Assembly: GCF_000003605.2 (NCBI RefSeq)
Contig: NW_003120651.1
Location: 1 to 26,198, forward strand
Length of the DNA: 26,198 nucleotides
DNA from: Saccoglossus kowalevskii
Lineage: Eukaryota; Hemichordata; Enteropneusta; Harrimaniidae
Direction of reading: 5' to 3'
Under the pieces are notes generated by a model. The model was not told the origin of the DNA. It did no database searches and worked only from the letters and a program-made list of their open reading frames with translations. Positions 398-26,023 of this stretch are shown one piece after another. Made by a program: the position numbers and the translations under genes. The stretch's first letter is position 1; each line of letters begins with the position of its first letter.

Positions 398-476
398 GGT
401 CATCTACGAATGTTTAAATTAAAGCGCAATCGGGCGTGGTTAGTAATTGCATGGGAGACTCCCTGAATAAACGACC
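398..476 (+). pseudogene. 5S rRNA-derived segment, M1
   Basis: Reference description for the set. From TCGGGC (near 430) onward the sequence follows eukaryotic 5S rRNA from about nucleotide 62 to 104: TCGGGC, a G for C, TGGTTAGTA, TTG, C for G, ATGGGAGAC, then CCTG and AATA. This covers the intermediate element and box C of the Pol III internal control region. Upstream, AAG..AAGC matches the box A area. A TCACCGA-like block matches 5S positions near 42-48 but is displaced by about 11 extra bases. The 5' third of 5S is not recognisable, and the 3' strand of helix I is lost, so it cannot encode a normal 5S rRNA. In this copy box C reads TAGTAATTGC (one change) and TCACCGA reads TCATCTA. A run of eight T follows at 488-495. 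Confidence 0.85.
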
Positions 477-654
477 TGTTGAATCCATTTTTTTTGATTC
501 ATCACTCATCTATAAAACATATAAAAAAACGATCCTGCATTCTTATTTACAGTGATGTCAATCATTTATAGTGAAAAATCGTAGAATTCTTGTAACCATT
601 TTAATTAATGAAAAGTGTTTTAATTCCTAATAATTTCCAAGGACAAGTTGTTCA

Positions 655-665
655 TGCCGTCGGCA
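655..665. other. Inverted repeat TGCCG-T-CGGCA (representative, M1)
   Basis: Five-base arms around a single T, in the most GC-rich spot of the monomer. Arms are broken by single changes in M2, M13, M18, M25 and M26 and intact elsewhere (deleted in M23). No known site is recognised. Confidence 0.45.
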
Positions 666-697
666 CGTAGTGGATTTTAAGCTGTTAACACACCGTG

Positions 698-746
698 CAA
701 AGTTGTTCAAAGTGAATGCAAAGTTGTACAAAGTTATTGCAAAGTT
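698..746 (+). repeat. Helically phased CAAAGTK cluster (representative, M1)
   Basis: CAAAGTT or CAAAGTG starts at 698, 708, 719, 729 and 740: intervals of 10, 11, 10 and 11 bp, averaging one B-DNA turn. The cluster is present in nearly all monomers. In M13-M18 and M25 the first motif reads CGAAGTT. M23 lost the cluster in its deletion. Such phasing places the same bases on one DNA face, giving intrinsic curvature or an aligned protein-binding array. Confidence 0.7.
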
Positions 747-949
747 TGTAGATAAATTTGTATATATGACCTAAGTAGTTGGCATATAAAAACGCGCAGT
801 TGTATGGTCGACATATTAAATAAAAGTTAGTTGAAAGCAGGCTATAGATGTTCTCATGAGCTGAGTGTAAAATGTTAGAAAAAAGTGTGCAAAGTTTGAG
901 AAAACGAAAGAAATGTTGCCGGAGTTGCTTATATATTTAACCTAAGTCA

Positions 950-961
950 TTGTCATGACAA
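950..961. other. Perfect 12-bp palindrome TTGTCATGACAA (representative, start of M2)
   Basis: Used here as the monomer boundary. A 10-bp core TGTCATGACA remains in the units with CACCCCCGC after it (for example 2842-2851). M1 (TTATC), M8 (CATAACA), M15 (TTGCC), M27 (CATTACA) and M28 (TTGTTATG) have lost symmetry. Confidence 0.5.
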
Positions 962-1340
962 CCCCAGTTAAATTTCGAAAACATTAAGTAAATGCATCGA
1001 TAATGCCTCATATATAAGCAGAATATCACAACAGACATCTGAAAAATCGACAACAAACTACATACAAAGTTGCAAAAAACGATTGCAAAGTTGGTAGTTA
1101 CATTCGTGATTTTTACCTGTGATATCATATTAAAAAGTCCCATAGTTAAAAGTTCGAAAATATGAATAAATATTTCTGAAAAAGCTGTTAAATTTCCGTA
1201 GTGTTACTCCAAGCTTGTAGAGGTCATAGGTCAATTCTTGAATGTACCTGTGCCAGCGATATCGATTTTAAAACATCAAAAAACATGAAATAGCCGCCAA
1301 TTCGGCTTAATTTCAAATAATCTATCCAGCTTTGTGGCTA

Positions 1341-1419
1341 GGTCACCGACGAATGTTTAAAATAAAGCTCAATCGGGCGTGGTTAGTACTTGCATGGGAG
1401 ACTCCCTGAATAAACGACC
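1341..1419 (+). pseudogene. 5S rRNA-derived segment, M2
   Basis: Box C core is intact (GGTTAGTACTTGCATGGGAG at 1381-1400) and TCACCGA is present. The box A area reads AATAAAGCTCAATCGGGC. GGGAGACTCCC at 1396-1406 forms a perfect inverted repeat. T8 at 1431-1438 is the likely Pol III stop. One of the best-preserved copies. Confidence 0.87.
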
Positions 1420-1430
1420 TGTTGAATTTA

Positions 1431-1438
1431 TTTTTTTT
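1431..1438 (+). terminator. Candidate Pol III terminator (representative, M2)
   Basis: A run of eight T begins 11 bp after the 5S-like segment. Pol III stops at runs of four or more T on the non-template strand. Equivalent runs follow almost every copy (individual positions are in the 5S entries): T8-T9 in most type A units, T6-T7 in type B, T4 in type C. M21 has only T3 and M23 none. Function is inferred from position relative to the box C match. Confidence 0.4.
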
Positions 1439-2287
1439 GTTTCATCACACATCTATAAAACATATAAAACAACGATCCTGCATTCTTTTTTTACAGTGAT
1501 GTCAATCATTTATAGTGAAAAATCGTAGAATTTATGTAACTATTTTAATTAATGAAAAGTGTTTTAATTCCTAATAATTTCCAAGGACAAGTTGTTCATG
1601 CTGTCGGCACGTAGTGGGTTTTAAGCTGTTAACACACCGTTCAAAGATGTTCAAAGTGAATGCAAAGTTGTACAAAGTTATTGCAAAGTTGGTAGATGTA
1701 TTTTTATATATGACCTAAGTAGTTGGCATATAGAAACGCGCAGTTGTAAAGTCGACAAATTAAATAAAAGTTAGTTGAAAGCAGCCTATAGATGTTCTCA
1801 TGAGGTGAGTGTAAAATGTTAGAAACAAGTGTGCAAATTTTTGGGAAAACGAAAGAAATGTTGGCGGAGTTGCTTTTATATTTAACCTAAGTCATTGTCA
1901 TGACAACACCACAGTTAAATTTCGGAAACATTAAGTAAATGTATCGATAATGCCTCATATATAAGCAGAAAATCACAACAGCCAACTGAAAAATCGACAA
2001 CAAACTACATACAAAGTTGCAAAAAGCGATTGCAAAGTTGGTAGTTTCATTCGTGATTTTTGCCTGTGATATCATATTAACAAGTCCCATAATTAAATGT
2101 TCGAAAATATGAATAAATATTTCTGAAAAAGCTGTTAAATTACCGTAGTTTTACTCCAAGCTCGTAGAGGTCATAGGTCAATTCTAGAATGAACCTGTAC
2201 CAGCGATGTCGATTTTAAAACATCGAAAAACATGAATTAGCCGCCAATTCGGCTTAATTTCAAATAATCAATGCAGCTTTGTGGTTA

Positions 2288-2366
2288 GGTCACCGACGAA
2301 TGTTTAAAGTAAAGCGCAATCGGGCGTGGTTAGTACTTGCATGGGAGACTCCCTGAATAAACGACC
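2288..2366 (+). pseudogene. 5S rRNA-derived segment, M3
   Basis: Intact GGTTAGTACTTG and GGGAGACTCCC, with box A area AAGTAAAGCGCAATCGGGC. The type A ending ACGACCTTTTG replaces CCTGTTG. T8 at 2378-2385. Confidence 0.87.
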
Positions 2367-3233
2367 TTTTGAATTTATTTTTTTTGTTTCATCACACATC
2401 TATAAAACATATAAAACAACGATCCTGCATTCTTTTTTACAGTGATGTCAATCATTTATAGTGAAAAATCGTAGAATTTTTGTAACTATTTTAATTAATG
2501 CAAAGTGTTTTAATTCCTTCTAATTTTCAAGGACAAGTTGTTCATGCCGTCGGCACTTAGTGGGTTTTAAGCTGTTAACACACCGTGCAAAGATGTTCAA
2601 AGTGAATGCAAATTTGTACAAAGTTATTGAAAAGTTGGTAGATGTATTTTTATATATGACCTAAGTAGTTGGCATATAGAAACGCGCAGTTGTAAAGTCG
2701 ACAAATTAAATAAAAGTTAGTTGAAAGCAGCCTATAGATGTTCTCATGAGGTGAGTGTAAAATGTTAGAAACAAGTGTGCAAATTTTTGGGAAAACGAAA
2801 GAAATGTTGGCGGAGTTGCTTTTATATTTAACCTAAGTCATTGTCATGACACCCCCGCAGTTAAATTTCGATTACATTAAGTAGATGTATCGATAATGCC
2901 TTATATATAGGCAGAATATCACAACAGCCAACTGAAAAATCGACAACAAACTACATACAAAGTTGCAAAAAGCGATTGCAAAGTTGGTAGTTTCCTTCGT
3001 GATTTTTACCTTTGAAATCATATTAACAAGTCCGACAATTAAATGTTCGAAAATATGAATAAATATTTCTGAAAAAGCTGTTAAATTACCGTAGTTTTAC
3101 TCCAAGCTTGTAGAGGTCATAGGTCAATTCTAGAATGTACCTGTGCCAGCGATATCGATTTTAAAACATCCAAAAACATAAAACAGCCGCCAATTCGGCT
3201 TAATTTCAAATAATCTATGCAGCTTTGTGGTTA

Positions 3234-3311
3234 GGTCACCTACGAATGTTTAAAGTAAAGCGCAATTGGGCGTGGTTAGTACTTGCATGGAGACTCACTG
3301 AATAAACGACC
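3234..3311 (+). pseudogene. 5S rRNA-derived segment, M4
   Basis: One G is missing from the GGG of box C (CATGGAGACTCACTG), and CCCTG has become CACTG, so the local inverted repeat is lost. TTGGGC replaces TCGGGC. T8 at 3319-3326. Confidence 0.84.
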
Positions 3312-4177
3312 TGTTAAATTTTTTTTGTTTCATCACACATCTATAAAACATATAAAACAACGATCCTGCATTCTTTTTTTACAGTGATGTCATTCATTTA
3401 TAGAGAAAAATCGTAGAATTTTTGTAACTATTTTAATTATTGAAAAGTGTTTTAATTCCTTCTAATTTTCAAGGATAAGTTGTTCATGCCGTCGGCACTT
3501 AGTGGGTTTTAAGCTGTTAACACACCGTGCAAAGATGTTCAAAGTGAATGCAAAGTTGTACAAAGTTATTGCAAAGTTGGTAGATGTATTTTTATATATG
3601 ACCTAAGTAGTTGGCATATAGAAACGCGCAGTTGTAAAGTCGACAAATTAAATAAAAGTTAGTTGAAAGCAGCCTATAGATGTTCTCATGAGGTGAGTGT
3701 AAAATGTTAGAAACAAGTGTGCAAATTTTTGGGAAAACGAAAGAAATGTTGGCGGAGTAGCTTTTATATTTAACCTAAGTTATTGTCATGACAACACCAC
3801 AGTTAAATTTTGGAAACATTAAGTAAATGTATCGATAATGCCTCATATATAAGCAGAAAATCACAACAGCCAACTGAAAAATCGACAACAAACTACATAC
3901 AAAGTTGCAAAAAGCGATTGCAAAGTTGGTAGTTTCATTCGTGATTTTTGCCTGTGATATCATATTAACAAGTCCCATAATTAAATGTTCGAAAATATGA
4001 ATAAATATTTTCTGAAAAAGCTGTTAAATTACCGTAGTTTTACTACAAGCTCGTAGAGGTCATAGGTCAATTCTAGAATGAACCTGTACCAGCGATGTCG
4101 ATTTTAAAACATCGAAAAACATGAATTTAGCCGCCAATTCGGCTTAATTTCAAATAATCAATGCAGCTTTGTGGTTA

Positions 4178-4256
4178 GGTCACCGAAGAATGTTTAAAGT
4201 AAAGCGCAATCGGGCGTGGTTAGTACTTGCATGGGAGACTCCCTGAATAAACGACC
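4178..4256 (+). pseudogene. 5S rRNA-derived segment, M5
   Basis: Box C matches M3. TCACCGAAG replaces TCACCGACG. T9 at 4268-4276. The whole monomer is close to M3, two units upstream. Confidence 0.87.
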
Positions 4257-5124
4257 TTTTGAATTTATTTTTTTTTGTTTCATCACACATATATAAAACA
4301 TATAAAACAACGATCCTGCATTCTTTTTTACAGTGATGTCAATCATTTATAGTGAAAAATCGAAGAATTTTTGTAACTATTTTAATTAATGCAAAGTGTT
4401 TTAATTCCTTCTAATTTTCAAGGACAAGTTGTTCATGCCGTCGGCACCTAGTGGGTTTTAAGCTGTTAACACACCGTGTAAAGTTGTTCAAAGTGAATGC
4501 AAAGTTGTACAAAGTTATTGCAAAGTTGGTAGATGTATTTGTATATATGACCTAAGTAGTTGGCATATAGAAACGCGCAGTTGTAAAGTCGACAAATTAA
4601 ATAAAAGTTAGTTGAAAGCAGCCTATAGATGTTCTCATGAGGTGAGTGTAAAATGTTAGAAACAAGTGTGCAAATTTTTGGGAAAACGAAAGAAATGTTG
4701 GCGGAGTTGCTTTTATATTTAACCAAAGTCATTGTCATGACACCCCCGCAGTTAAATTTCGAAAACATTAAGTAAATGTATCGATAATGCCTAATATATA
4801 AGCATAATATCACAACAGCCAAATGAAAAATCGACAACAAACTACATACAAAGTTGCAAAAAGCGATTGCAAAGTTGGTAGTTTCATTCGTGATTTTTAC
4901 CTGTGATATCATATTAACAAGTCCCATAATTAAATGTTCGAAAATATGAATAAATATTTCTGAAAAAGCTGTTAAATTACCGTAGTTTTACTCCAAGCTT
5001 GTAGAGGTCATAGGTCAATTCTACAATGTACCTGTGCCAGCGATATCGATTTTAAAACATCCAAAAACATGAAATAGCCGCCAAGTCGGCTTAATTTAAA
5101 ATAATCCATGCACCTTTGTGGTTA

Positions 5125-5203
5125 GGTCACCGACGAATGTTTAAAGTAAAGTGCAATGGGGCGTGGTTAGTACTTGCATGGGAGACTCCCTGAATAAACG
5201 ACC
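5125..5203 (+). pseudogene. 5S rRNA-derived segment, M6
   Basis: TCGGGC has become TGGGGC and box A reads AAAGTGCAA. Box C is intact. T8 at 5215-5222. The flanking GCACCTTTGTGG is private to M6-M8. Confidence 0.86.
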
Positions 5204-6072
5204 TTTTGAATTTATTTTTTTTGTTTCATCACACATCTATAAAACATATAAAACAACGATCCTGCATTCTTTTTTACAGTGATGTCAATCATTTATAGTG
5301 AAAAATCGTAGAATTTTTGTAACTATTTTAATTAATGCAAAGTGTTTTAATTCCTTCTAATTTTCAAGGACAAGTTGTTCATGCCGTCGGCACCTAGTGG
5401 GTTTTAAGCTGTTAACACACCGTGTAAAGTTGTTCAAAGTGAATGCAAAGTTGTACAAAGTTATTGCAAAGTTGGTAGATGTATTTGTATATATGACCTA
5501 AGTAGTTGGCATATAGAAACGCGCAGTTGTAAAGTCGACAAATTAAATAAAAGTTAGTTGAAAGCAGCCTATAGATGTTCTCATGAGGTGAGTGTAAAAT
5601 GTTAGAAACAAGTGTGCACATTTTTGGGAAAACGAAAGAAATGTTGGCGGAGTTGCTTTTATATTTAACCAAAGTCATTGTCATGACACCCCCGCAGTTA
5701 AATTTCGAAAACATTAAGTAAATGTATCGATAATGCCTAATATATATTAGCATAATATCACAACAGCCAACTGAAAAATCGACAACAAACTACATACAAA
5801 GTTGCAAAAAGCGATTGCAAAGTTGGTAGTTTCATTCGTGATTTTTACCTGTGATATCATATTAACAAGTCCCATAATTAAATGTTCGAAAATATGAATA
5901 AATATTTCTGAAAAAGCTGTTAAATTACCGTAGTTTTACTCCAAGCTTGTAGAGGTCATAGGTCAATTCTACAATGTACCTGTGCCAGCGATATCGATTT
6001 TAAAACATCCAAAAAAATTAAATAGCCGCCAAGTCGGCTTAATTTTAAATAATGCATGCACCTTTGTGGTTA

Positions 6073-6151
6073 GGTCACCGGCGAATGTTTAAAGTAAAGT
6101 GCAATCGGGCGTGGTTAGTACTTGCATGGGAGACTCCCTGAATAAACGACC
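6073..6151 (+). pseudogene. 5S rRNA-derived segment, M7
   Basis: TCGGGC and box C are intact, with TCACCGGCG in place of TCACCGACG. T8 at 6163-6170. Confidence 0.87.
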
Positions 6152-7018
6152 TTTTGAATTTATTTTTTTTGTTTCATCACACATCTATAAAACATATAAA
6201 ACAACGATCCTGCATTCTTTTTTACAGTGATGTCAATCATTTATAGTGAAAAATCGTAGAATTTTTGTAACTATTTTAATTAATGCAAAGTGTTTTAATT
6301 CCTTCTAATTTTCCAGGACAAGTTGTTCATGCCGTCGGCACCTAGTGGGTTTTAAGCTGTTAACACACCGTGTAAAGTTGTTCAAAGTGAATGCAAAGTT
6401 GTACAAAGTTATTGCAAAGTTGGTAGATGTATTTGTATATATGACCTAAGTAGTTGGCATATAGAAACGCGCAGTTGTAAAGTCGACAAATTAAATAAAA
6501 GTTAGTTGAAAGCAGCCTATAGATGTTCTCATGAGGTGAGTGTAAAATGTTAGAAACAAGTGTGCAAATTTTTGGGAAAACGAAAGAAATGTTGGCGGAG
6601 TTGCTTTTATATTTAACCAAAGTCATTGTCATAACACCCCCGCAGTTAAATTTCGAAAACATTAAGTAAATGTATCGATAATGCCTAATATATAAGCATA
6701 ATATCACAACAGCCAACTGAAAAATCGACAACAAACTACATACAAAGTTGCAAAAAGCGATTGCAAAGTTGGTAGTTTCATTCGTGATTTTTACCTGTGA
6801 TATCATATTAACAAGTCCCATAATTAAATGTTCGAAAATATGAATAAATATTTCTGAAAAAGCTGTTAAATTACCGTAGTTTTACTCCAAGCTTGTAGAG
6901 GTCATAGGTCAATTCTACAATGTACCTGTGCCAGCGATATCGATTTTAAAACATCCAAAAACATGAAATAGCCGCCAAGTCGGCTTAATTTAAAATAATC
7001 CATGCACCTTTGTGGTTA

Positions 7019-7097
7019 GGTCACCGGCGAATGTTTAAAGTAAAGTGCAATGGGGCGTGGTTAGTACTTGCATGGGAGACTCCCTGAATAAACGACC
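7019..7097 (+). pseudogene. 5S rRNA-derived segment, M8
   Basis: Shares TGGGGC with M6 and TCACCGGCG with M7. Box C is intact. T8 at 7109-7116. Confidence 0.86.
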
Positions 7098-7963
7098 TTT
7101 TGAATTTATTTTTTTTGTTTCATCACACATCTATAAAACATATAAAACAACGATCCTGCATTCTTTTTTACAGTGATGTCAATCATTTATAGTGAAAAAT
7201 CGTAGAATTTTTGTAACTATTTTAATTAATGCAAAGTGTTTTAATTCCTTCTAATTTTCAAGGACAAGTTGTTCATGCCGTCGGCACCTAGTGGGTTTTA
7301 AGCTGTTAACACACCGTGTAAAGTTGTTCAAAGTGAATGCAAAGTTGTACAAAGTTATTGCAAAGTTGGTAGATGTATTTGTATATATGACCTAAGTAGT
7401 TGGCATATAGAAACGCGCAGTTGTAAAGTCGACAAATTAAATAAAAGTTAGTTGAAAGCAGCCTATAGATGTTCTCATGAGGTGAGTGTAAAATGTTAGA
7501 AACAAGTGTGCAAATTTTTGGGAAAACGAAAGAAATGTTGGCGGAGTTGCTTTTATATTTAACCTAAGTCAATGTCATGACACCCCCGCAGTTAAATTTT
7601 GAAAACATTAAGTAAATGTATCGATAATGCCTCATATATAAGCAGAATATCACAACAGCCAACTGAAAAATCGACAACAAACTACATACAATGTTGCAAA
7701 AAGCGATTGCAAAGTTGGTAGTTTAATTCGTGATTTTTACCTGTGATATCATATTAGCAAGTCCCATAGTTAAAAGTTCGAAAATATAAATAAATATTTC
7801 TGAAAAAGCTGTTAAATTACCGGAGTGTTACTCCAAGCTTGTAGAGGTCATAGGTCAATTATAGAATGTACCTGTGTCAGCTATATCGATTTCAAAACAT
7901 CCAAAACATGAAATAGCCGCCAATTCGGCTTAATTTCAAATAATCAATGCAGCTTTGTGGTTA

Positions 7964-8042
7964 GGTCACTGACGAATGTTTAAAGTAAAGCGCAATCGGG
8001 CTTGGTTAGTACTTGCATGGGAGACTCCCTGAATAAACGACC
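7964..8042 (+). pseudogene. 5S rRNA-derived segment, M9
   Basis: The intermediate-element region reads CGGGCTTGG instead of CGGGCGTGG, a change shared only with M10. TCACTGA replaces TCACCGA. T7 at 8054-8060. Confidence 0.86.
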
Positions 8043-8906
8043 TTTTGAATTTATTTTTTTGTTTCATCACACATCTATAAAACATATAAAACAACGATCC
8101 TGCATTCTTTTTTACTGTGATGTCAATCATTTATAGTGAAAAATCGTAGAATTTTTGTAACTATTTTAATTAAAGAAAAGTGTTCTAATTCCTTCTAATT
8201 TTCAAGGACAAGTTGTTCATGCCGTCGGCACGTAGTGGGTATTAAGCTGTTAACACACCGTGCAAAGTTGTTCAAAGTAAATGCAAAGTTGTACAAAGTT
8301 AATGCAAAGTTGGTAGATGTATTTGTATATATGACCTAAGTAGTTGGCATATATAAACGCGTAGTTGTAAAGTCGACAAATTAAATAAAAGTTAGTTGAA
8401 AGCAGCCTATAGATGTTCTCATGAGGTGAGTGAAAAATGTTAGAAACAAGTGTGCAAATTTTTGGGAAAACGAAAGAAATGTTGGCGGAGTTGCTTTTAT
8501 ATTTAACCTAAGTCATTGTCATGACACCCCCGCAGTTAAATTTCGATTACATTAAGTAGATGTATCGATAATGCCTTATATATAAGCGGAATATCACAAC
8601 AGCCAACTGAAAAATCGACAACAAACTACATACAAAGTTGCAAAAAGCGATTGCAAAGTTGGTAGTTTCATTCGTGATTTTTACCTGTGATATCATATTA
8701 ACAAGTCCCATAATTAAATGTTCGAAAATATGAAGAAATATTTCTGAAAAGCTGTTAAATTACCGGAGTGTTACTCCAAGCTTGTAGAGGTCATAGGTCA
8801 ATTATAGAATGTACCTGTGTCAGCTATATCGATTTCAAAACATCCAAAACATGAAATAGCCGCCAATTCGGCTTAATTTCAAATAATCAATGCAGCTTTG
8901 TGGTTA

Positions 8907-8985
8907 GGTTACCGACGAATGTTTAAAGTAAAGCGCAATCGGGCTTGGTTAGTACTTGCATGGGAGACTCCCTGAATAAACGACC
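8907..8985 (+). pseudogene. 5S rRNA-derived segment, M10
   Basis: Carries the M9 variant CGGGCTTGG and also GGTTACCGACG. Box C is unchanged. T7 at 8997-9003. Confidence 0.86.
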
Positions 8986-9850
8986 TTTTGAATTTATTTT
9001 TTTGTTTCATCACACATCTATAAAACATATAAAACAACGATCCTGCATTCTTTTTTACTGTGATGTCAATCATTTATAGTGAAAAATCGTAGAATTTTTG
9101 TAACTATTTTAATTAATGCAAAGTGTTTTAATTCCTTCTAATTTTCCAGGACAAGTTGTTCATGCCGTCGGCACGTAGTGATTTTTAAGCTGTTAACACA
9201 CTGTGCAAAGTTGTTCAAAGTAAATGCAAAGTTGTACAAAGTTATTGCAAAGTTAGTAGATGTATTTGTATATATGACCTAAGTAGTTGGCATATAGAAA
9301 CGCGCAGTTGTAAAGTCGACAAATTAAATAAAAGTTAGTTGAAAGCAGCCTATAGATGTTTTCATGAGGTGAGTGTAAAATGTTAGAAACAAGTGTGCAA
9401 ATTTTTGGGAAAACGAAAGAAATGTTGGCGGAGTTGCTTTTATAGTTAACCTAAGTCATTGTCATGACACCCCCGCAGTTAAATTTCGATTACATTAAGT
9501 AGATGTATCGATAATGCCTTATATATAGGCAGAATATCACAACAGCCAACTGAAAAATCGACAACAAACTACATACAAAGTTGCAAAAAGCGATTGCAAA
9601 GTTGGTAGTTTCATTCGTGATTTTTACCTGTGATATCATATTAACAAGTCCCATAATTAAATGTTCGAAAATATGAAGAAATATTTCTGAAAAGCTGTTA
9701 AATTACCGTAGTTTTACTCCAAGCTTGTAGAGGTCATAGGTCATTTCTACAATGTACCTGTGCCAGCGATATCGATTTTAAATCATCCAAAAACATGAAT
9801 TAGCCGCCCATTCGACTCAATTTCAAATAATCAATGCAGCTTTGTGGTTA

Positions 9851-9929
9851 GGTCACCGACGAATGTTTAAAGTAAAGCGCAATCGGGCGTGGTTAGTACT
9901 TGCATGGGAGACTCCCTGAATAAACGACC
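9851..9929 (+). pseudogene. 5S rRNA-derived segment, M11
   Basis: Carries the type A consensus throughout: TCACCGACG, AAGCGCAATCGGGCG and an intact box C. T8 at 9941-9948. Confidence 0.87.
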
Positions 9930-10788
9930 TTTTGAATTTATTTTTTTTGTTTCATCACACATCTATAAAACATATAAAACAACGATCCTGCATTCTTTTT
10001 TACAGTGATGTCAATCATTTATAGTGAAAAATCGTAGAATTTTTGTAACTATTTTAATTAATGCAAAGTGTTTTAATTCCTTCTAATTTTCAAAGACAAG
10101 TTGTTCATGCCGTCGGCACTTAGTGGGTTTTAAGCTGTTAACACACCGTGCAAAGATGTTCAAAGTGAATGCAAAGTTGTACAAAGTTATTGCAAAGTTG
10201 GTAGATGTATTTTTATATATGACCTAAGTAGTTGGCATATAGAAACGCGCAGTTGTAAAGTCGACAAATTAAATAAAAGTTAGTTGAAAGCAGCCTATAG
10301 ATGTTCTCATGAGGTGAGTATAAAATGTTAGAAACAAGTGTGCAAATTTTTGGGAAAACGAAAGTAATGTTGGCGGAGTTGCTTTTATATTTAACCTAAG
10401 TCATTGTCATGACACCCCCGCAGTTAAATTTCGATTACATTAAGTAGATGTATCGATAATGCCTTATATATAAGCGGAATATCACAACAGCCAACTGAAA
10501 AATCGACAACAAACTACATACAAAGTTGCAAAAAGCGATTGCAAAGTTGGTAGTTTCATTCGTGATTTTTACCTGTGATATCATATTAACAAGTCCCATA
10601 ATTAAATGTTCGAAAATATGAAGAAATATTTCTGAAAAGCTGTTAAATTACCGTAGTTTTACTCCAAGCTTGTAGAGGTCATTTCTACAATGTACCTGTG
10701 CCAGCGATATCGATTTTAAATCATCCAAAAACATGAATTAGCCGCCCATTCGACTTAATTTCAAATAATCAATGCAGCTTTCTGGTTA

Positions 10789-15507: not shown

Positions 15508-15586
15508 GGTCAACGACGAATGTTTAAAGTAAAGTGAAATCGGGCGTGGTTAGTTCTTGCATGAGAGACTCCCTGATTAAACGACC
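15508..15586 (+). pseudogene. 5S rRNA-derived segment, M17
   Basis: GGTTAGTTCTTGC is followed by ATGAGAGAC, so the conserved GGG of box C is broken. T7 at 15598-15604. Confidence 0.83.
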
Positions 15587-16451: not shown

Positions 16452-16530
16452 GGTCACCGACGAATGTTTAAAGTAAAGTGAAATCGGGCGTGGTTAGTTC
16501 TTGCATGAGAGACTCCCTGATTAAACGACC
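16452..16530 (+). pseudogene. 5S rRNA-derived segment, M18
   Basis: Shares ATGAGAGAC with M17 but has TCACCGACG rather than TCAACGACG. T7 at 16542-16548. The damaged stretch of this monomer begins just downstream. Confidence 0.83.
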
Positions 16531-17388
16531 TGTTGAATTTATTTTTTTGTTTCATCACTCATCTATAAAACATATAAAACAACGATCCTGCATTCTTTTT
16601 ACAGTGATGTCAATCATTTATACTGTAAAATCGTAGAATTTTGTAACTATTTTAATAATGAAAAGTGTTTAATCCTTCTAATTTGCAAGTACAAGTTGTT
16701 CATGCCATCGGCACGTAGTGGGTTTTAAGCTGTTAACCAACCGTGCGAAGTTGTTCAAAGTGAATGCAAAGTGTAAAAATTTATTGCAAAGTTGGTAGAT
16801 GTATTTGTATATATGACTAAGTAGTTGGCATATAGAAACGCGCAGTTGTAAAGTCGACAAATTAAATAAAAGTTAGTTGAAAGCAGCCTATAGATGTTCA
16901 CATTAGCTGAGTGTAAAATGTTAGAAAACAGTGTGCAATGTTTGGGAAAACGAAAGAAATGTTGGCGGAGTTACTTTTATATTTAACCTAAGTCATTGTC
17001 ATGACAACACCGCAGTTAAATTTCGAAAACATTAAGTAAATGTATCGATAATGCCTCATATATTAGCAGAATATGACAACAGCCAACTGAAAAATCGACA
17101 ACAAACTTCATACAAAGTTGCAAAATACGATTGCAAAGTTGGTAGTTTAATTCGTGATTTTTACCTGTGATATCATATTAACAAGTCCCATAGTTAAAAG
17201 TTCGAAAATATGAATAAATATTTCTGAAAAAGCTGTTAAATTACCGTAGTGATACACCAAGCTTGTACAGGTCATAGGTCAATTCTAGAATGTACCTGTG
17301 CCAGCGATATCGATTTTTAAACATCCAAAAACTTGAAATAGCCGCCAATTCGGCTTAATTTCAAATAATCCATGCAGCTTTGTGGTTA

Positions 17389-17467
17389 GGTTACCGACGA
17401 ATGTTTAAAGTAAAGTGCAATCGGGCGTGGTTATTTCTTGCATGGGAGACTCCCTGAATAAACGACC
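17389..17467 (+). pseudogene. 5S rRNA-derived segment, M19 (B/A recombinant)
   Basis: The first part carries the M13/M14 box C variant GGTTATTTCTTGC, but the end reads CCTGAATAAACGACC (type A) instead of CTGATTAAACG. The change of type falls between about 17440 and 17460. T6 at 17479-17484. Confidence 0.83.
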
Positions 17468-18330
17468 TGTTCAATTTATTTTTTGTTTCATCACACATCT
17501 ATAAAACATATAAAACAACGAACCTGCATTCTTTTTTACAGTGATGTCAATCATTTATAGTGAAAAATCGTAGAATTTTTGTAACTATTTTAATTAATGC
17601 AAAGTGTTTTAATTCCTTCTAATTTTCAAGGACAAGTTGTTCATGCCGTCGGCACGTAGTGGGTTTTAAGCTGTTAACACACCGTGCAAAGTTGTTCAAA
17701 GTAAATGCAAAGTTGTACAAAGTTATTGCAAAGTTGGTAGATGTATTTGTATATATGACCTAAGTAGTTGGCATATAGAAACGCGCAGTTGTAAAGTCGA
17801 CAAATTAAATAAAAGTTAGTTGAAAGCAGCCTATAGATGTTCTCATGAGGTGAGTGTAAAATGTTAGAAACAAGTGTGCAAATTTTGGGGAAAACGAAAG
17901 AAATGTTGGCGGAGTTGCTTTTATATTTAACCTAAGTCATTGTCATGACACCACCGCAGTTAAATTTCGAAAACATTAAGTAAATGTATGGATAATGCCT
18001 CATATATAAGCAGAATATCACAACAGCCAACTGAAAAATCGACAACAAACTACATACAACGTTGCAAAAAGCGATGGCAAAGTTGGTAGTTTCATTCGTG
18101 CTTTTTTACCTGTGATATCATATTAACAAGTCCCATAATTAAATGTCCGAAAATATGAATAAATATTTCTGAAAAAGCTGTTAAATTACCGTAGTTTTAC
18201 TCCAAGCTTCTAGAGGTCATAGGTCAATTCTAAAAACCTGTGCCAGCGATGTCGATTTTAAAACATCCAAAAACATGAATTAGCCGCCAATTCGGCTTAA
18301 TTTCAAATAATCAATACAGCTTTGTGGTTA

Positions 18331-18409
18331 GGTCACCGACGAATGTTTAAAGTAAAGTGAAATTGGGCGTGGTTAGTACTTGCATGGGAGAATACCTGAA
18401 TAAACGACC
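18331..18409 (+). pseudogene. 5S rRNA-derived segment, M20
   Basis: Box C GGTTAGTACTTGC is intact, but GAGACTCCCTG has become GAGAATACCTG, removing the inverted repeat. TTGGGC replaces TCGGGC. T8 at 18421-18428. Confidence 0.83.
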
Positions 18410-19276
18410 TTTTGAATTTATTTTTTTTGTTTCATCACACATCTATAAAACATATAAAACAACGATCCTGCATTCTTATTTACAGTGATGTCAATCATTT
18501 ATAGTGAAAAATCGTAGAATTTTTGTAACTATTTTAATTAATGCAAAGTGTTTTAATTCCTTCTAATTTTCAAGGACAAGTTGTACATGCCGTCGGCACG
18601 TAGTGGGTTTTAAGCTGTTAACACACCGTGCAAAGTTGTTCAAAGTGAATGCAAAGTTGTACAAAGTTATTGCAATGTTGGTAGATGTGTTTGTATATAT
18701 GACCTAAGTAGTTGGCATATAGAAACGCGCAGTTGTAAAGTCGGCATATTAAATAAAAGTTAGTTGAAAGCAGCCTATAGATGTTCTCATGAGCTGAGTG
18801 TAAAATGTTAGAAACCAGTGTGCAAATTTTAGGGAAAACGAACGAAATGTTGGCGGAGTTGCTTTTATATTTAACCTAAGTCATTGTCATGACAATCCCG
18901 CAGTTAAATTTCGAAAACATTAACTAAATGTATCGATAATGCCTCATATATAAGCAGAATATCACAACAGCCAACTGAAAAATCGACAACAAACTACATA
19001 CAAAGTTGCAAAAAGCGATTGCAAAGTTGGTAGTTTCATTCGTGATTTTTACCTGTGATATCATATTAACAAGTCCCATAATTAAATGTTCGAAAATATG
19101 AATAAATATTTCTGAAAAAGCTGTTAAATTACCGTAGTTTTACTCCAACCTTGTAGAGGTCATAGATCAATTCTACAATGTACCTGTGCCAGCGATATCG
19201 ATTTTAAAACATCCAAAAACATGAATTAGCCGCCCATTCGGCTTAATTTCAAATAAGCAATGCAGCTTTGTGGTTA

Positions 19277-19355
19277 GGTCACCGACGAATGTTTAAAATA
19301 AAGCGCAATCGGGCGTGTTTAGCACTTGCATGGGAGACTCCCTGAATAAACGACT
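19277..19355 (+). pseudogene. 5S rRNA-derived segment, M21
   Basis: Reads GTGTTTAGCACTTGC, the type C box C with one further change. The end is CGACTT. Only T3 follows (19367-19369), so this copy lacks an obvious Pol III stop at the usual place. Confidence 0.82.
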
Positions 19356-20219
19356 TGTTGAATTTATTTGGTTTGTTTCATCACACACCTATAAAACATA
19401 TAAAACAACGATCCTGCATTCTTTTTTACAGTGATGTCAATCATTTATAGTGAAAAATCGTAGAATTTTTGTAACTATTTTAATTAATGAAAAGTGTTTT
19501 AATTCCTTCTAATTTTCAAGAACAAGTTGTTCATGCCGTCGGCACGTAGTGGGTTTTAAGCTGGTAGCACACCGTGCAAAGTTGTTCAAAGTGAATGCAA
19601 AGTTGTACAAAGTTTTTGCAAAGTTGGTAGATGTATTTGTATATATGACCTAAGTAGTTGGCATATAGAAACGCGCAGTTGTAAAGTCGACGAATTAAAT
19701 AAAAGTTAGTTGAAAGCAGCCTATAGATGTTCACATGAGCTGAGTGTAAAATGATAAAAAAAGTGTGCAAAGTTTGGGAAAACGAAAGAAATGTTGGCGG
19801 AGTTGCTTTTATATTTAACCTAAGTCATTGTCATGACAACCCCCAGTTAAATTTCGAAAACATTAAGTAAATGTATCGATAATGCATCATATATTAGCAG
19901 AATATCACAACAGCCAACTGAAAAACCGACAACAAACTACATACAAAGTTGCAAAAGGCGATTGCAAAGTTGGTAGTTTCATTCGTGATTTTTACCTGTG
20001 ATAACATATTAACAAGTTCCATAGTTAAAAGTTCGAAAATATGAATAAATATCTCTGAAAAAGCTGTTAAATTACCGTAGTGTTACTCCAAGCTTGTAGA
20101 GGTCATAGGTCAATTCTAGAATGTACCTGTGCCAGCGATATCGATTTTAAAACATCCAAAAACATGAAATAGCCGCCAATTCGGCTTAATTTCAAATAAT
20201 CCCTGCAGCTTTGTGGTTA

Positions 20220-20298
20220 GGTCACCGACGAATGTTTAAAATAAAGCGCAATCGGGCGTGGTTAGCACTTGCATGGGAGACTCCCTGAATAAACGACT
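20220..20298 (+). pseudogene. 5S rRNA-derived segment, M22
   Basis: Type C box C GGTTAGCACTTGC with AAAATAAAGCGCAATCGGGC upstream. GGGAGACTCCC is intact. T4 at 20310-20313. Confidence 0.84.
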
Positions 20299-20765
20299 TG
20301 TTGAATTTATTTTGTTTGTTTCATACACACCTATAAAACATATAAAACAACGATCCTGCATTCTTTTTTACAGTGATGTCAATAATTTATAGTGAAAAAT
20401 CGTAGAATTTTTGTAACTATTTTAATTAATGAAAAGTGTTTTAATTCCTTCTAATTTTCAAGAACAAGTTGTTCATGCCGTCGGCACGTAGTGGGTTTTA
20501 AGCTGCACACCGTGCAAAGTTGTTCAAAGTGAATGCAAAGTTGTACAAAGTTTTTGCAAAGTTGGTTGATGTATTTGTATATATGACCTAAGTAGTTGGC
20601 ATATAGAAACGCGCAGTTGTAAAGTCGACGAATTAAATAAAAGTTAGTTGAAAGCAGCTTATAGATGTTCACATGAGCTGAGTGTAAAATGATAAAAAAA
20701 GTGTGCAAAGTTTGGGAAAACGAAAGAAATGTTGGCGGAGTTGCTTTTATATTTAACCTAAGTCA

Positions 20766-21325
20766 TTGTCATGACAACTCCCAGTTAAATTTCGAAAACA
20801 TTAAGTAAATGTATCGATAATGCCTCATATATTAGCAGAATATCACAACAGCCAACTGAAAAATCGACAACAAACTACATACAAAGTTGCAAAAAGCGAT
20901 TGCAAAGTTGGTAGTTTCATTCGTGATTTTTACCTGTGATATCATATTAACAAGTCCCATAGTTAAAAGTTCGAAAATATGAACAAATATTTCTGAAAAA
21001 GCTGTTAAATTACCGTAGCGTTACTCCAAGCTTGTAGAGGTCATAGGTAAATTCTAGAATGTACCTGTGCCAGCGATATCGATTTTAAAACATCCACAAA
21101 CATGAAATAGCCGCCAATTCGGCTTAATTTCAAATAATCCATGGAGCTTTGTGGTTAGGTTACCGACGAATGTTTAAAGTAAAGTGCAATCCGACGTGGT
21201 TAGTACTTGCATGGGAGACTATAGATGTTCACATGAGCTGAGTGTAAAATGTTAAAAAAAGTGTGCAAAGTTTGGGAAAACGAAAGAAATGTTGGCGGAG
21301 TTGCTTTTATATTTAACCTAAGTCA
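20766..21325 (+). repeat. Truncated monomer M23 (560 bp)
   Basis: The unit is normal up to GAGACT at 21220 and then continues with ATAGATGTTCACATGAGC. Compared with M22 about 378 bp are missing, from the 3' end of the 5S-like segment through the T run, the TATAAAACATATAAAAC tract, TGCCGTCGGCA and the phased CAAAGTT cluster. The dinucleotide CT is shared at both deletion ends, so short-homology joining or slippage is plausible. Confidence 0.9.
21158..21220 (+). pseudogene. 5S rRNA-derived segment, M23, cut off by deletion
   Basis: GGTTAGTACTTGCATGGGAG is present, but the copy stops at GAGACT and continues directly into ATAGATGTTCACATG, which normally lies about 380 bp further on. The 3' end and T run are gone. 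CAATCCGACG replaces CAATCGGGCG. Confidence 0.85.
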
Positions 21326-21712
21326 TTGTCATGACAATCCCAGTTAAATTTCGAAAACATTAAGTAAATGTATCGATAATGCCTCATATATTAGCAGAAT
21401 ATCACAACAGCCAACTGAAAAACCGACAACAAACTACAAAGTTGAAAAAAGTGATAGCAAAGTTGGTACTTTCATTCGTGATTTTTACATGTGATATCAT
21501 ATTAACAAGTTCCATAGTTAAAAGTTCGAAAATATGAATAAATATCTCTGAAAAAGCTGTTAAATTACCGTAGTGTTACTCCAAGCTTGTAGAGGTCATA
21601 GGTCAATTCTAGAATGTACCTGTGCCAGCGATATCGATTTTAAAACATCCAAAAACATGAAATAGCCGCCAATTCGGCTTAATTTCAAATAATCCATGCA
21701 GCTTTGAGGTTA

Positions 21713-21791
21713 GGTCACCGACGAATGTTTAAAATAAAGCGCAATCGGGCGTGGTTAGCACTTGCATGGGAGACTCCCTGAATAAACGACT
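21713..21791 (+). pseudogene. 5S rRNA-derived segment, M24
   Basis: Type C (GGTTAGCACTTGC, ending ACGACTTG), nearly identical to M22 over this stretch. T4 at 21803-21806. Confidence 0.84.
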
Positions 21792-22263
21792 TGTTGAATT
21801 TATTTTGTTTGATTCATCACACACCTATAAAACATATAAAACAACGATCCTGCATTCTTTTTTACAGTGATGTCAATCATTTATAGTGAAAAATCGTAGA
21901 ATTTTTGTAACTATTTTAATTAATAAAAAGTGTTTTAATTCCTTCTAATTTTCAAGAACAAGTTGTTCATGCCGTCGGCACGTAGTGGGTTTTAAGCTGT
22001 TAGCACACCGTGCAAAGTTGTTCAAAGTGAATGCAAAGTTGTACAAAGTTTTTGCAAAGTTGGTAGATGTATTTGTATATATGACCTAAATAGTTGGCAT
22101 ATAGAAACGCGCAGTTGTAAAGTCGACGAATTAAATAAAAGTAAGTTGAAAGCAGCCTATAGATGTTCACATGAGCTGAGTGTAAAATGTTAAAAAAAGT
22201 GTGCAAAGTTTGGGAAAACGAAAGAAATGTTGGCGGAGTTGCTTTTATATTTAACCTAAGTCA

Positions 22264-23205
22264 TTGTCATGACGACCCCCAGTTAAATTTCGAAAACATT
22301 AAGTAAATGTATCGATAATGCCTCATATATTAGCAGAATATCACAACAGCCAACTGAAAAATCGACAACAAACTACATACAAAGTTGCAAAAAGCGATTG
22401 CAAAGTTGGTAGTTTCATTCGGGATTTTTACCTGTGACATCATATTAACAAGTCCCATAGTTAAAAGTTCGAATGTATGAATAAATATTTCTGAAAAAGC
22501 TGTTAAATTACCGTAGCATTACTCCAATCTTTAGAGGTCATAGGTCAATCCTAGAATGTACCTGTGCCAGCGATATCGATTTTAAAACACCCAAAAACAT
22601 GAAATAGCCGCCAATTCGGCTTAATTTCAAATAATTCATGCAGCTTTGTGGTTAGGTCAACGACGAATGTTTAAAGTAAAGTGAAACCGGGCGTGGTTAG
22701 TTCTTGCATGGGAGACTCCCTGATTAAACGACCTGTTGAATTTATTTTTTTGTTTCATCACACATCTATAAAACATATAAAACAACGATCCTGCACTCTT
22801 TTTTACAGTGATGTTAATCATTTATACTGTAAAATCGTAGAATTTCTGTAACTATTTTAATTAATGAAAAGTGTTTTAATTCCTTCTAATTTTCAAGTAC
22901 AAGTTGTTCATGCTGTCGGCACGTAGTGGGTTTTAAACTGTTAACAAACCGTGCGAAGTTGTTCAAAGTGAATGCAAAGTTGTAAAAAGTTATTGCAAAG
23001 TTGGTAGATGTATTTGTATATATGACCTAAGTTGTTGGCATATAGAAACGCGCAGTTGCAAAGTCGACAAATTAAATAAAAGTTAGTTGAAAGCAGCCTA
23101 TAAATGTCCCCATGAGCTGAGTGTAAAATGTTAGAAAAAAGTGTGCAAAGTTTGAGAAAACGAAAGAAATGTTGGCGGAGTTGCTTTTATATTTAACCTA
23201 AGTCA
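22264..23205 (+). repeat. M25, type B unit after the type C block
   Basis: Carries CAAGTACAAG, CGTGCGAAG and the B-type 5S segment. Its 5' part has CGAATGTATG in place of CGAAAATATG and ATTACTCCAATCTTTAG. It lies directly after type C units, indicating transfer between blocks. Confidence 0.65.
22655..22733 (+). pseudogene. 5S rRNA-derived segment, M25
   Basis: Carries the M15-M17 type B signature (TCAACGACG, AAGTGAAACCGGGCG, GGTTAGTTCTTGC, CTGATTAAACG) although its upstream neighbour is type C. T7 at 22745-22751. Confidence 0.84.
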
Positions 23206-24146
23206 TTGTCATGACAACCCCGCAGTTAAATTTCGAAAACATTAAGTAAATGTATCGATAATGCCTCATATATTAGCAGAATATCACAACAGCCAACAGA
23301 AAAATCGACAACAAACTACATACAAAGTTGCAAAAAGCGATTGCAAAGTTGGTAGTTTCATTCGTGATTTTTACCTGTGATATCATATTAACAAATCCCA
23401 TAGTTAAAAGTTTGAAAATATGAATAAATATTTCTGAAAAATCTGTTAAATTACCGTAGTGTTACTCCAAGCTTGTAGAGGTCATAGGTCAATTCTAGAA
23501 TGTACCTGTGCCTGCGATGTCGATTTTAAAACATCCTAATATATGAAATAGCCGCCAATTCGGCTTAATTTCAAATAATCCATGCAGCTTTGTGGTTAGG
23601 TCACCGTCGAATGTTTAAAGTAAAGCGCAATCGGGCGTGGTTAGTACTTGTGTGGGAGACTCCCTGAATAAACGACCTGTTGATTTTTTTTGTTTCATCA
23701 CACATCCATAAAACATATAAAACAACAATCCTGCATTCTTTTTAACAGTGATGTCAATCATTTATAGTGAAAAATCGTAGAATTTTTGTAACTATTTCAA
23801 TTAATGAAAAGTGTTTTAATTTCCTTCTAATTTTCAAGGACAAGTTGTTCATGCTGTCGTCACGTAGTGGATTTTAAGCTGTTAACACACCGTGCAAAGT
23901 TGTTCAAAGTGAATGCAAAGTTGTACAAATTAATTGCAAAGTTTGTAGATGTATTTGTATATATGACCTAAGTAGTTGGCATATAAAAACGCGCAGTTTT
24001 ATGGTCGACATATTAAATATAAGTTAGTTGAAAGCAGCCTATATATGTTCACATGAGCTGAGTGTAAAATGTTAGAAAAAAATGTGCAAAGTTTGAGAAA
24101 ACGAAAGAATTGTTGGCGGAGTTGCTTTTATATTTAACCGAAGTCA
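23206..24146 (+). repeat. M26, unit resembling M1
   Basis: Shares with M1 the rare variants CATATAAAAACGCGCAG, TATGGTCGACATATTAAAT, GCAAAGTTTGTAGAT, AGTGGATTTTAAGC and AAAGTTTGAGAAAACG. M27 also begins CCCCCCAG like M1, so M26-M27 parallel the first units of the window about 23.2 kb away. Confidence 0.6.
23599..23677 (+). pseudogene. 5S rRNA-derived segment, M26
   Basis: Box C reads TTAGTACTTGTGTGGGAGAC, with CA changed to TG. TCACCGTCG lies upstream. T8 at 23684-23691, directly after GTTGA. Confidence 0.84.
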
Positions 24147-24539
24147 TTGTCATTACAACCCCCCAGGTAAATTTCGAAAACATAAAGTAAATGTATCGAT
24201 AATGCCTCATATATAAGTAGAATATCACAACAGCCAACTGAAAAATCGACAACAAACTACATACAAAGTTGCAAAAAGCGATTGCAAAGTTGGTAGTTTC
24301 ATTCGTGATTTTTACCTGTGATATCATATTAACAAGTCCCATAGTTAAAAGTTCGAAAATATGAATAAATATTTCTGAAAAAGCTGTTAAATTACCGTAG
24401 TGTTACTCCAAGCTTGTAGAGGTCATAGGTCAATTCTAGAATGTACCTGTGCCAGCGATGTCGATTTTAAAACATCCAAAAACATGAAATAGCCGCCAAT
24501 TCGGCTTAATTTAAAATCATCCGTGCAGCTTTGTGGTTA

Positions 24540-24618
24540 GGTCACCGACGAATGTTTAAAGTAAAGCGCAATCGGACGTGGTTAGTACTTGCATGGGAGA
24601 CTCCCTGAATACACGATC
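24540..24618 (+). pseudogene. 5S rRNA-derived segment, M27
   Basis: Intact GGTTAGTACTTGC with AATCGGACG in the 5S core. The end reads AATACACGATC. T4 at 24630-24633, in the type C TTTTGTTTGTTTC tract. Confidence 0.84.
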
Positions 24619-25475
24619 TGTTGAATTTATTTTGTTTGTTTCATCACACACCTATAAAACATATAAAACAACGATCCTGCATTCTTTTTTACAGTGATGT
24701 CAATAATTTATAGTGAAAAATCGTAGAATTTTTGTAACTATTTTAATTAATGAAAAGTGTTTTAATTCCTTCTAATTTTCAAGAACAAGTTGTTCATGCC
24801 GTCGGCACGTAGTGGGTTTTAAGCTGGTAGCACACCGTGCAAAGTTGTTCAAAGTGAATGCAAAGTTGTACAAAGTTTTTGCAAAGTTGGTTGATGTATT
24901 TGTATATATGACCTAAGTAGTTGGCATATAGAAACGCGCAGTTGTAAAGTCGACGAATTAAATAAAAGTTAGTTGAAAGCAGCTTATAGATGTTCACATG
25001 AGCTGAGTGTAAAATGATAAAAAAAGTGTGCAAAGTTTGGGAAAACGAAAGAAATGTTGGCGGAGTTGCTTTTATATTTAACCTAAATCATTGTTATGAC
25101 AACCCCGCAGTTAAATTTCGAAAACATTAAGTAAATGTATCGATAATGCCTCATATATAAGCAGAATATCACAACAGCCAACTGAAAAATCGACAACAAA
25201 CTACATACAAAGTTGCAAAAAGCGATTGCAAAGTTGGTAGTTTCATTCGTGATTTTTACCTGTGATATCATATTAACAAGTCCCATAGTTAAAAGTTCGA
25301 AAATATGAACAAATATTTCTGAAAAGCTGTTAAATTACCGTAGCGTTACTCCAGCTTGTAGAGGTCATATGTCATGCTAGATGTACCTTGTGCCAGCGAT
25401 GTCGATTTAAACGTCCAAAAACATGAAATATCCACCAATCGGCTTAATTCAAATAATCCTTGCAGTTTGTGGTTA

Positions 25476-25553
25476 GGTCACCGACGAATGTTAAAGTAAA
25501 GCGCAATCGGGAGTGGTTAGTACTTGCATGGGGGACTCCCTGAATAAACGACC
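25476..25553 (+). pseudogene. 5S rRNA-derived segment, M28
   Basis: Reads CGGGAGTGGTTAGTACTTGC, then ATGGGGGACTCCC. One T is missing upstream (ATGTTAAAG). It is followed by the longest T run of the array, T13 at 25560-25572. Confidence 0.83.
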
Positions 25554-26023
25554 TTTTGATTTTTTTTTTTTTCATCACACATTTATAAAACATATAAACC
25601 AACGATCCTGCATTCTTTTTTAAAGTGATGTCAATCATATATAGTCGAAAATCGTGGAATTTTTGTAACTATTTTAATTAATGAAAAGTGTTTTAATTCC
25701 TTCTAATTTTCAAAGACGAGTTGTTCATGCCGTCGGCACGTAGTGGGTTTTAAGCTGTTAACACACCGTGCAAAGTTGTTCAAAGTGAATGCAAAGTTGT
25801 ACAAAGTTATTGCAAAGTTTGTAGATGTTTTTGTATATATGATCTAAGTAGTTGGCATATAGAAAGGCGCAGTTGTAAAGTCGACATATTAAATAAAAGT
25901 TAGTTGAAAGCAGCCTATAGATGTTCTCATGAGCTGAGTGTAAAATGTTAGAAACAAGTGTGCAAATTTTAGGGAAAACGAACGAAATGTTGGCGGAGTT
26001 GCTTTTATATTTAACCTAAGTCA

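Follow-up and report, generated by a model that had tools for sequence, protein, structure and literature searches.

A composite satellite of Saccoglossus kowalevskii with a 5S rRNA gene-derived core in every unit, a putative Pol III factor site

The 26,198 nucleotides of Saccoglossus kowalevskii contig NW_003120651.1 analyzed here, referred to below as the window, form a satellite array in which, according to an earlier note, each monomer carries a fragment of 5S rRNA. This raises the questions of where the fragment came from, how it became part of so long a unit, and whether it is retained for what it might bind or has simply been carried along. The long array comprises homogeneous units arranged head to tail (n = 28, of which 27 are full and one is truncated), with pairwise identities of 92 to 99% (mean, 94.7%). 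Twenty-six units measure 935 to 949 bp and the last reaches the end of the window; the count of 28 given in the earlier note is correct, but the unit at positions 20777 to 21331 is shortened to 555 bp.

With the host's own 5S gene as the BLASTN query, a check that had been proposed along with the original claim, all 28 units were matched, every one on the plus strand and at a single phase (E values of 9e-10 to 4e-7), bearing out the presence of a 5S-derived fragment in each. Most matches span 5S nucleotides (nt) 49 to 91 or 49 to 110, and one covers nt 63 to 110 only. The second proposed check, a covariance search of the window with RF00001, yielded zero matches at the gathering score or at E values up to 1, and an Rfam scan of the window was empty. 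The fragment had been placed at about nt 62 to 104; the match to 5S stands, but it begins at nt 49 and includes box A, in addition to the intermediate element (IE) and box C that it had been said to contain. The core is given here as the 43 nt on the plus strand equivalent to nt 49 to 91 of the host gene (Table 1).

In ungapped counts over the 28 units, 32 to 38 of the 43 core positions are as in host 5S (mean, 36.0). Nucleotides 68 to 91 retain a mean of 23.0 of 24 positions (minimum, 19), and nt 49 to 67 retain a mean of 13.0 of 19, with about a third changed. Aligned with host 5S, the consensus reaches a score of 35, a value that none of 2,000 dinucleotide shuffles equaled (shuffle maximum, 18.5). 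Judged by this likeness, nt 49 to 91 are shown to have descended from a 5S gene.

Table 1. Positions of the array, the 5S cores, and representative unit features in the window. Core rows correspond to 5S nt 49 to 91 (43 nt each), as located by BLASTN with the host 5S gene.
Feature	Position	Strand	Remarks
Satellite array, whole window	1..26198	+	28 5S-bearing units, all cut at one phase
5S core, unit 1	417..459	+	
5S core, unit 2	1360..1402	+	
5S core, unit 3	2307..2349	+	
5S core, unit 4	3253..3295	+	box C with one base deleted
5S core, unit 5	4197..4239	+	
5S core, unit 6	5144..5186	+	
5S core, unit 7	6092..6134	+	
5S core, unit 8	7038..7080	+	
5S core, unit 9	7983..8025	+	
5S core, unit 10	8926..8968	+	
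5S core, unit 11	9870..9912	+	
5S core, unit 12	10808..10850	+	
5S core, unit 13	11747..11789	+	
5S core, unit 14	12690..12732	+	
5S core, unit 15	13639..13681	+	
5S core, unit 16	14583..14625	+	
5S core, unit 17	15527..15569	+	
5S core, unit 18	16471..16513	+	
5S core, unit 19	17408..17450	+	
5S core, unit 20	18350..18392	+	
5S core, unit 21	19296..19338	+	
5S core, unit 22	20239..20281	+	
5S core, unit 23	21177..21219	+	inside the truncated 555-bp unit
5S core, unit 24	21732..21774	+	
5S core, unit 25	22674..22716	+	BLASTN match itself nt 63 to 110 only
5S core, unit 26	23618..23660	+	
5S core, unit 27	24559..24601	+	
5S core, unit 28	25494..25536	+	
Sub-repeat A (~173 bp), unit 2	1019..1194	+	approximate, from consensus 60-235
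5S-holding module, unit 2, flanked by sub-repeats A and B	1199..1613	+	consensus about 240-655
T8 run, unit 2	1431..1438	+	28 nt after the 5S core, 5S-terminator position
Sub-repeat B, unit 2	1614..1794	+	approximate, from consensus 655-835
Sub-repeat C, junction of units 2 and 3	1789..1970	+	approximate, from consensus 830-945 plus 1-63

Beyond the core, a consensus of eight distant relatives aligns without gaps to 5S nt 30 to 106, and its likeness to 5S continues, more weakly, to the 3' end of the gene; the score 3' of nt 91 was reached by 14 of 5,000 shuffles. Upstream, the match of nt 30 to 48 taken alone is not significant (its score was reached by 82 and 167 of 2,000 shuffles), and when the test is anchored to nt 1, 3,118 of 5,000 shuffles do as well as the eight-relative consensus. 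With nothing significant upstream of nt 49, the 5' part of 5S is indeed unrecognizable, as previously noted, and these units could not give rise to normal 5S rRNA.

A run of T usually follows the core, again as previously described. Runs of at least seven T's lie within 36 nt after the core in 20 of the 28 units, as opposed to an expected fraction of 0.03, and there are only 22 such runs in the whole window. Runs of at least five begin 28 nt past nt 91 in 18 units, approximately the position of 5S nt 120, and 23 nt past it in 4 units; the remaining 6 have none behind the core. The T run sits where a 5S gene would terminate, and it is also present behind the examined cores of other length classes of the satellite.

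The body of the unit is composite. Pairwise alignments reveal three diverged sub-repeats of ~173 bp, with scores of 75 (A-B), 63 (A-C), and 77 (B-C), exceeding the respective maxima of 39, 45, and 39 among 300 simple shuffles per pair. A tandem arrangement on a single strand and at a single phase, with a 5S piece in every unit, is what a decayed 5S rDNA cluster would look like, each unit representing an old 5S gene and the spacer that went with it, and this origin had been among those suggested. Evidence against it comes from the sub-repeats, which make up much of the remainder, from the likeness to 5S on the 5' side of nt 49, which is not significant, and from the spacers themselves: when one monomer was compared with the two host 5S spacer types (5S units of 1,139 and 1,579 bp), nothing outside the core was better than E = 0.05. 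By sequence comparison, what lies outside the core is distinct from 5S spacer, and we consider a decayed cluster highly improbable.

The satellite belongs to a superfamily whose units range from 728 to ~956 bp, falling into classes of 728 and 925 to 956 bp, together with scattered fragments; one 16-mer from outside the 5S segment has 2,541 exact copies in the 572-Mb assembly. Mitochondrial gene order in this assembly points to a Saccoglossus-like acorn worm; a lancelet host was set aside, the gene order given for Asymmetron in PMC2034537 being at odds with it. The 728-bp class and the 944-bp unit align along their length, interrupted by a few large gaps, at 67% identity where aligned, and such alignments show the length classes to share descent. 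The genome also has a second 5S-like satellite. The likeness of a 216-bp repeat to the 944-bp consensus is confined to the 5S core, and a fusion of two satellites (728 + 216 = 944) was rejected, since the 728-bp class aligns along the unit and the 216-bp repeat matches only the core. Among eight loci chosen by a non-5S anchor, one (L051) is without a recognizable core, and some relics, L048 among them, have a changed box C.

Dispersed copies bear on whether the satellite was seeded by a mobile element with a 5S promoter, which could be a SINE of the SINE3 type or an animal equivalent of Cassandra, an element of plants. In the excerpts of PMC7215508, Cassandra is a terminal-repeat retrotransposon in miniature (TRIM) of vascular plants, with the 5S promoter within its long terminal repeat (LTR), that forms tandem arrays, and the combination of a 5S-derived promoter core and a terminator in each tandem unit resembles such arrays as they appear there and in parts of PMC10853983. 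Cassandra, however, is an LTR element of plants with a primer-binding site, whereas this satellite is from an animal and shows no fixed ends at the dispersed loci examined. At six such loci (for one of which, L050, the left end lay outside the fetched stretch), copies end at different unit coordinates and three extend over more than one unit, in contrast to insertions with fixed termini. No element ends are common to these six loci, neither the shared 5' end at a Pol III start with a shared 3' tail that characterizes SINE3 nor the two LTRs with fixed termini of a Cassandra TRIM. The internal repeats that were found are the three ~173-bp copies, and the 5' end of 5S is absent. Seeding by a 5S-derived SINE, as the earlier note had suggested, thus finds no backing in these loci, and a retroelement of either type has very little probability. 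The idea of a tRNA-5S chimera, with an A box of tRNA type lying 5' of the core, was also discarded: among eight representatives, only L049 (8 of 9 positions; P = 0.012) scored clearly above shuffles. The SINE-derived satellite PcH-Sat of the limpet Patella, thought in the available portion of PMC11121367 to have a Pol III-type origin, differs in its source, as no SINE-like insertion pattern was found at the dispersed loci here.

A 5S fragment captured once might also have been carried passively by amplification and homogenization, without function, any conservation then reflecting sampling noise or a slowly mutating GC-rich stretch. Within the array, the core shows no extra conservation, as expected of such a passenger: 96% of 903 windows equal or exceed the 43-nt core, and 68% do so when CpG columns are removed. 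The comparison between relatives argues the other way. In multiple alignments of complete stretches, picked by the non-5S anchor and blind to the core, identity over nt 67 to 91 is 86.4%, 84.4%, and 80.6% in sets of 8, 9, and 7 sequences (the last omitting the 944- and 728-bp consensuses), against 58.5%, 60.1%, and 58.3% in the rest of the alignment, with 4, 9, and 19 of 445 windows matching this conservation. The effect is weaker for the full 43-nt core (its level is reached by 22, 35, and 57 of 427 windows), and in pairwise global alignments of 12 anchor-started units, some of which end before the core, the core is only within the top 10% of windows. Constraint is further called into question by the changes in about a third of nt 49 to 67 and by the altered box C of some relics.

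An initial result, in which the core was the best of all 43-nt windows, was dropped, as four of five classes had been chosen through exact core matches; that this strong signal stemmed partly from the choice of loci is itself in keeping with passive carriage, as are the locus without a core and a second island (consensus about 92 to 125, in sub-repeat A), of no known meaning, that is conserved equally or better. The T run behind the core, in most units of the window and in the examined cores of other classes, points away from it. Passive carriage retains an appreciable probability, although we would not bet on it. RNA structure was rejected as the conserved feature: folds predicted for 13 satellite sequences differ between classes, with none in common, and it is probably not the RNA fold that is maintained.

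The reading that we favor, with a modest degree of confidence, is that the satellite is composite and took up a promoter module from a 5S gene, retained as a putative TFIIIA-type/Pol III site. The window would be one array of an old composite superfamily, the unit of which was formed from three diverged ~173-bp sub-repeats and a module holding a piece of host 5S; the captured piece would start at nt 49, or perhaps nt 30, and run to the 3' end, T-run terminator included. This composite would then have been amplified, split into the 728- and 925- to 956-bp length classes, and dispersed as fragments. Within its site, TFIIIA binds tightly to the IE and the 5' portion of box C, and weak selection may have maintained these as a DNA site. 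If so, the units would bind TFIIIA, with TFIIIC and Pol III as possible further partners, and short RNAs that end at the T run may be made from them. Conservation between relatives lends moderate support to the predicted factor-binding landmark put forward before this analysis.

The array has the features of a 5S-derived satellite: homogeneous tandem units, a 5S-like segment, and a remainder that is not spacer. A satellite of this kind in the fish Hoplias malabaricus is presumably the one named 5SHindIII. By their titles alone, as cited in PMC12692304, the satellites of H. malabaricus and of the Plantago lagopus B chromosome are 5S rDNA derived, and the accounts in parts of PMC11675491 and PMC12692304 place 5S-derived satellites in frogs, a fish, and a plant. 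According to the excerpts of PMC11675491, PcP190 of hyloid frogs has a ~190-bp unit with a 120-bp region ~70% like the 5S gene, is reported to be transcribed, with the role of the transcripts still open, and resembles the present array in that its conserved region comes from the 5S gene and the remaining unit is unlike 5S spacers. The present satellite falls outside the PcP190 family (~190-bp unit, ~120 bp 5S-like): its array unit is ~944 bp with a 43-nt core (728 to 956 bp across classes), the 5' part of 5S is unrecognizable, and much of the body consists of sub-repeats.

What is new is a hemichordate 5S-derived satellite that is composite and has subfamilies of very different age; the kind itself was already known. 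A bolder and rather doubtful reading is that a large animal satellite superfamily acts as an array binding TFIIIA or Pol III factors, in which the 5S IE-box C segment and terminator were held while length and body turned over, and which might be organized around a Pol III landmark, perhaps with work at chromatin boundaries or centromeres. The range of ages within one genome makes it possible to ask directly whether selection preserves a Pol III factor site in a satellite.

The window, positions 1-26198 of contig C1321 in a 572-Mb assembly of 4830 contigs, is a satellite array from end to end, and each of its 28 units contains a 5S piece. Cutting the array at one phase yields 26 units of 935-949 bp, one of 555 bp, and a final piece of 1105 bp comprising a unit and the beginning of the next, which bears out the earlier note's 28 units at constant phase; the mean pairwise identity of the units is 94.7%. 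The truncated 555-bp unit (20777-21331) retains the 5S core. With the host 5S gene as query, all 28 units match on the plus strand, most over nt 49-91 or 49-110. The plus-strand 5S match claimed in that note is therefore upheld, but its Rfam check found nothing in the window, presumably because so short and interrupted a 5S piece escapes the model. In most units nt 49-91 align without gaps, so box A and box C lie as far apart as in a 5S gene. The 43-nt cores (nt 49-91) match the host gene at a mean of 36.0 of 43 positions, and at 23.0 of 24 within nt 68-91, and the score of the unit consensus against the host gene was reached by 0 of 2000 shuffles.

The host has ordinary tandem 5S genes in two true classes, with units of about 1139 and 1579 bp. 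All 47 candidates scored (from 18,217 at first look) exceeded the Rfam cut-off, and the host genes score 105-113 bits; the spacer of the 1579-bp class contains internal repeats. Host gene and satellite units share two bases, in GGGCGTGG and TTGCATGG, which are unusual for a 5S gene, and this common possession suggests that the satellite 5S piece arose within the host lineage.

The limits of the piece were assessed from eight aligned relatives, one per contig or class (the 944-bp consensus, C115, C7, C62, C129, C203, C275, and C74), whose majority consensus matches 5S nt 30-106 without gaps. On the 3' side of nt 91, 14 of 5000 shuffles reached the anchored score of this consensus, with single sequences ranging from 0 of 2000 shuffles (L046) to a P value of 0.17 (L049). 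Upstream of nt 49, the test anchored to nt 1 fails (3118 of 5000 shuffles), and the 944-bp consensus is equalled or exceeded by 82 and 167 of 2000 shuffles. These shuffle tests support a 5S-derived piece running from nt 49 to the 3' end and are only suggestive for nt 30-48.

The unit itself is composite. Pairwise alignment within the unit reveals three related stretches of ~173 bp in the order B-C-A, the pairs scoring 75, 63, and 77, whereas simple shuffles, 300 for each pair, peaked at 39-45. The rest of the unit, ~415 nt here and about 220 nt in the 728-bp class, contains the 5S piece and has no clear relation to these sub-repeats apart from two weak hints: one pairs sub-repeat A with the stretch preceding the core (2 of 300 shuffles do as well), the other sub-repeat B with the core region (10 of 300).

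The satellite belongs to a larger set of classes (Table). Exact-match counts, which are lower bounds on repeat number, give 679 occurrences in the assembly of a 31-mer spanning the window-class core and 3' flank, 1631 of the 24-mer core where the next base is not T (with true 5S genes and a 216-bp repeat among those counted), and 2541 of a 16-mer distant from the 5S piece. At 728-956 bp each, 2541 copies amount arithmetically to ~1.8-2.4 Mb, or 0.3-0.4% of the assembly. The first 100 places listed for the 24-mer are other arrays; the first 100 for the 16-mer are mostly arrays, with seven single places on six large contigs. Where they align, the 728-bp class and the 944-bp consensus share 67% of positions, as against 93% in the core. 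At six dispersed loci, the start and end of the match vary in unit coordinates (the left end at L050 lies beyond the fetched stretch), and at three of the six the match spans more than one unit. Such differing ends argue against SINE or LTR insertion, and these copies are what would be expected of array fragments.

Satellite classes, host 5S genes, and the second conserved island
Feature	Location	Length or spacing	Remark
Satellite class	window	944 bp	
Satellite class	C743	938 bp	
Satellite class	C820	927 bp	
Satellite class	C879	941 bp	
Satellite class	C115	728 bp	
Satellite class	C275	about 956 bp	
Satellite class	C74		
Host 5S genes	C3485 (L009)	about 1139 bp	
Host 5S genes	C2212 (L010), C3801 (L011)	about 1579 bp	
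Second conserved island	e.g., about 1051-1084		contains motif CAAAGTT

A 216-bp tandem repeat on C111 (L033, L038) contains a full-length 5S-like stretch, and, judged by spacing, the same repeat is probably present on C242, C404, C554, C576, and C588; some of its steps are 118 bp. Rfam matches at the two C111 loci comprise 26 that are complete, scoring 59-92 bits, and 2 truncated at the locus end, and among 28 distinct C111 units the 5S part (nt 16-120) is more conserved than the spacer (0.949 versus 0.897). As read from the alignment and folds, two stems of its consensus carry paired changes relative to host 5S. This repeat could represent a diverged type of 5S gene or else a satellite like PcP190. 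PcP190 is the nearest known kind to the window satellite but is closer in kind to the 216-bp repeat, and the nearest known layout is that of plant Cassandra arrays. Among the matches listed in open-licence literature on hemichordate or Saccoglossus satellites, no paper describes the window repeat.

On the mitochondrial contig (C4830; L054, L055; 17,037 bp), tRNA-Lys has the anticodon TTT, AAA is used 51 times, at conserved lysines, and AGA occurs at a conserved serine; cox1 is inverted and nad2 precedes nad1. Passages of PMC3121625 describe, for Saccoglossus relative to Balanoglossus, an inverted COX1 and a transposed ND1 or ND2, with the usual tRNA-Lys anticodon kept. By this comparison the host is probably a Saccoglossus-like acorn worm.

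Within the array, the core displays no excess conservation: 96% of 903 windows equal or surpass it, as do 68% when CpG columns are omitted, although this test is weak because the array is homogenised. A between-class comparison that placed the core on top was discarded, four of its five classes having been picked by the core. For an unbiased test, loci were listed by the above 16-mer as an anchor in non-5S satellite sequence, and eight were fetched (six dispersed and two arrays); seven contain a recognisable core, the exception being L051. In a pairwise version that included truncated units, the core ranked among the best 10% of windows. L047 was left out of the first multiple alignment because its unit following the anchor was cut short, and entered the later one through its preceding unit. 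Identity over nt 67-91 was 86.4% versus 58.5% elsewhere with 8 sequences (4 of 445 windows equal or better), 84.4% versus 60.1% with 9 (9 of 445), and 80.6% versus 58.3% with the 7 that exclude the 944- and 728-bp consensuses (19 of 445), the background being lowered by a stretch deleted in some relatives and scored as mismatches. The effect is weaker for the full 43 nt (22, 35, and 57 of 427 windows, respectively). A second island, at about 92-125 of the consensus in sub-repeat A, is conserved between relatives equally or more; its motif CAAAGTT is present seven times in the unit consensus. The alignments provide moderate evidence, short of proof, that the intermediate element, together with the 5' portion of box C, is under constraint.

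The T run expected as a terminator after the 5S piece is found in most units: 20 of 28 window cores are followed within 36 nt by seven or more Ts, of which the whole window has 22 runs, against a chance expectation of 3% of positions. Six of the 28 lack even five Ts at the expected place, as does the C203 relic within the stretch aligned. Runs of five or more follow all 13 cores found, by an incomplete search, at loci of other classes (3 in C115, 2 each in C275, C74, and C743, 3 in C820, and 1 in C879). In these counts, units from the same array do not amount to independent cases. Predicted folds of the 5S piece vary among 13 satellite sequences and, at -12 to -18 kcal/mol, are weaker than that of host 5S (-26.5 kcal/mol). 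Box C and the intermediate element carry most of the contacts of the 5S factor TFIIIA. What is kept in this satellite family, if anything, is likely a DNA site rather than an RNA structure.
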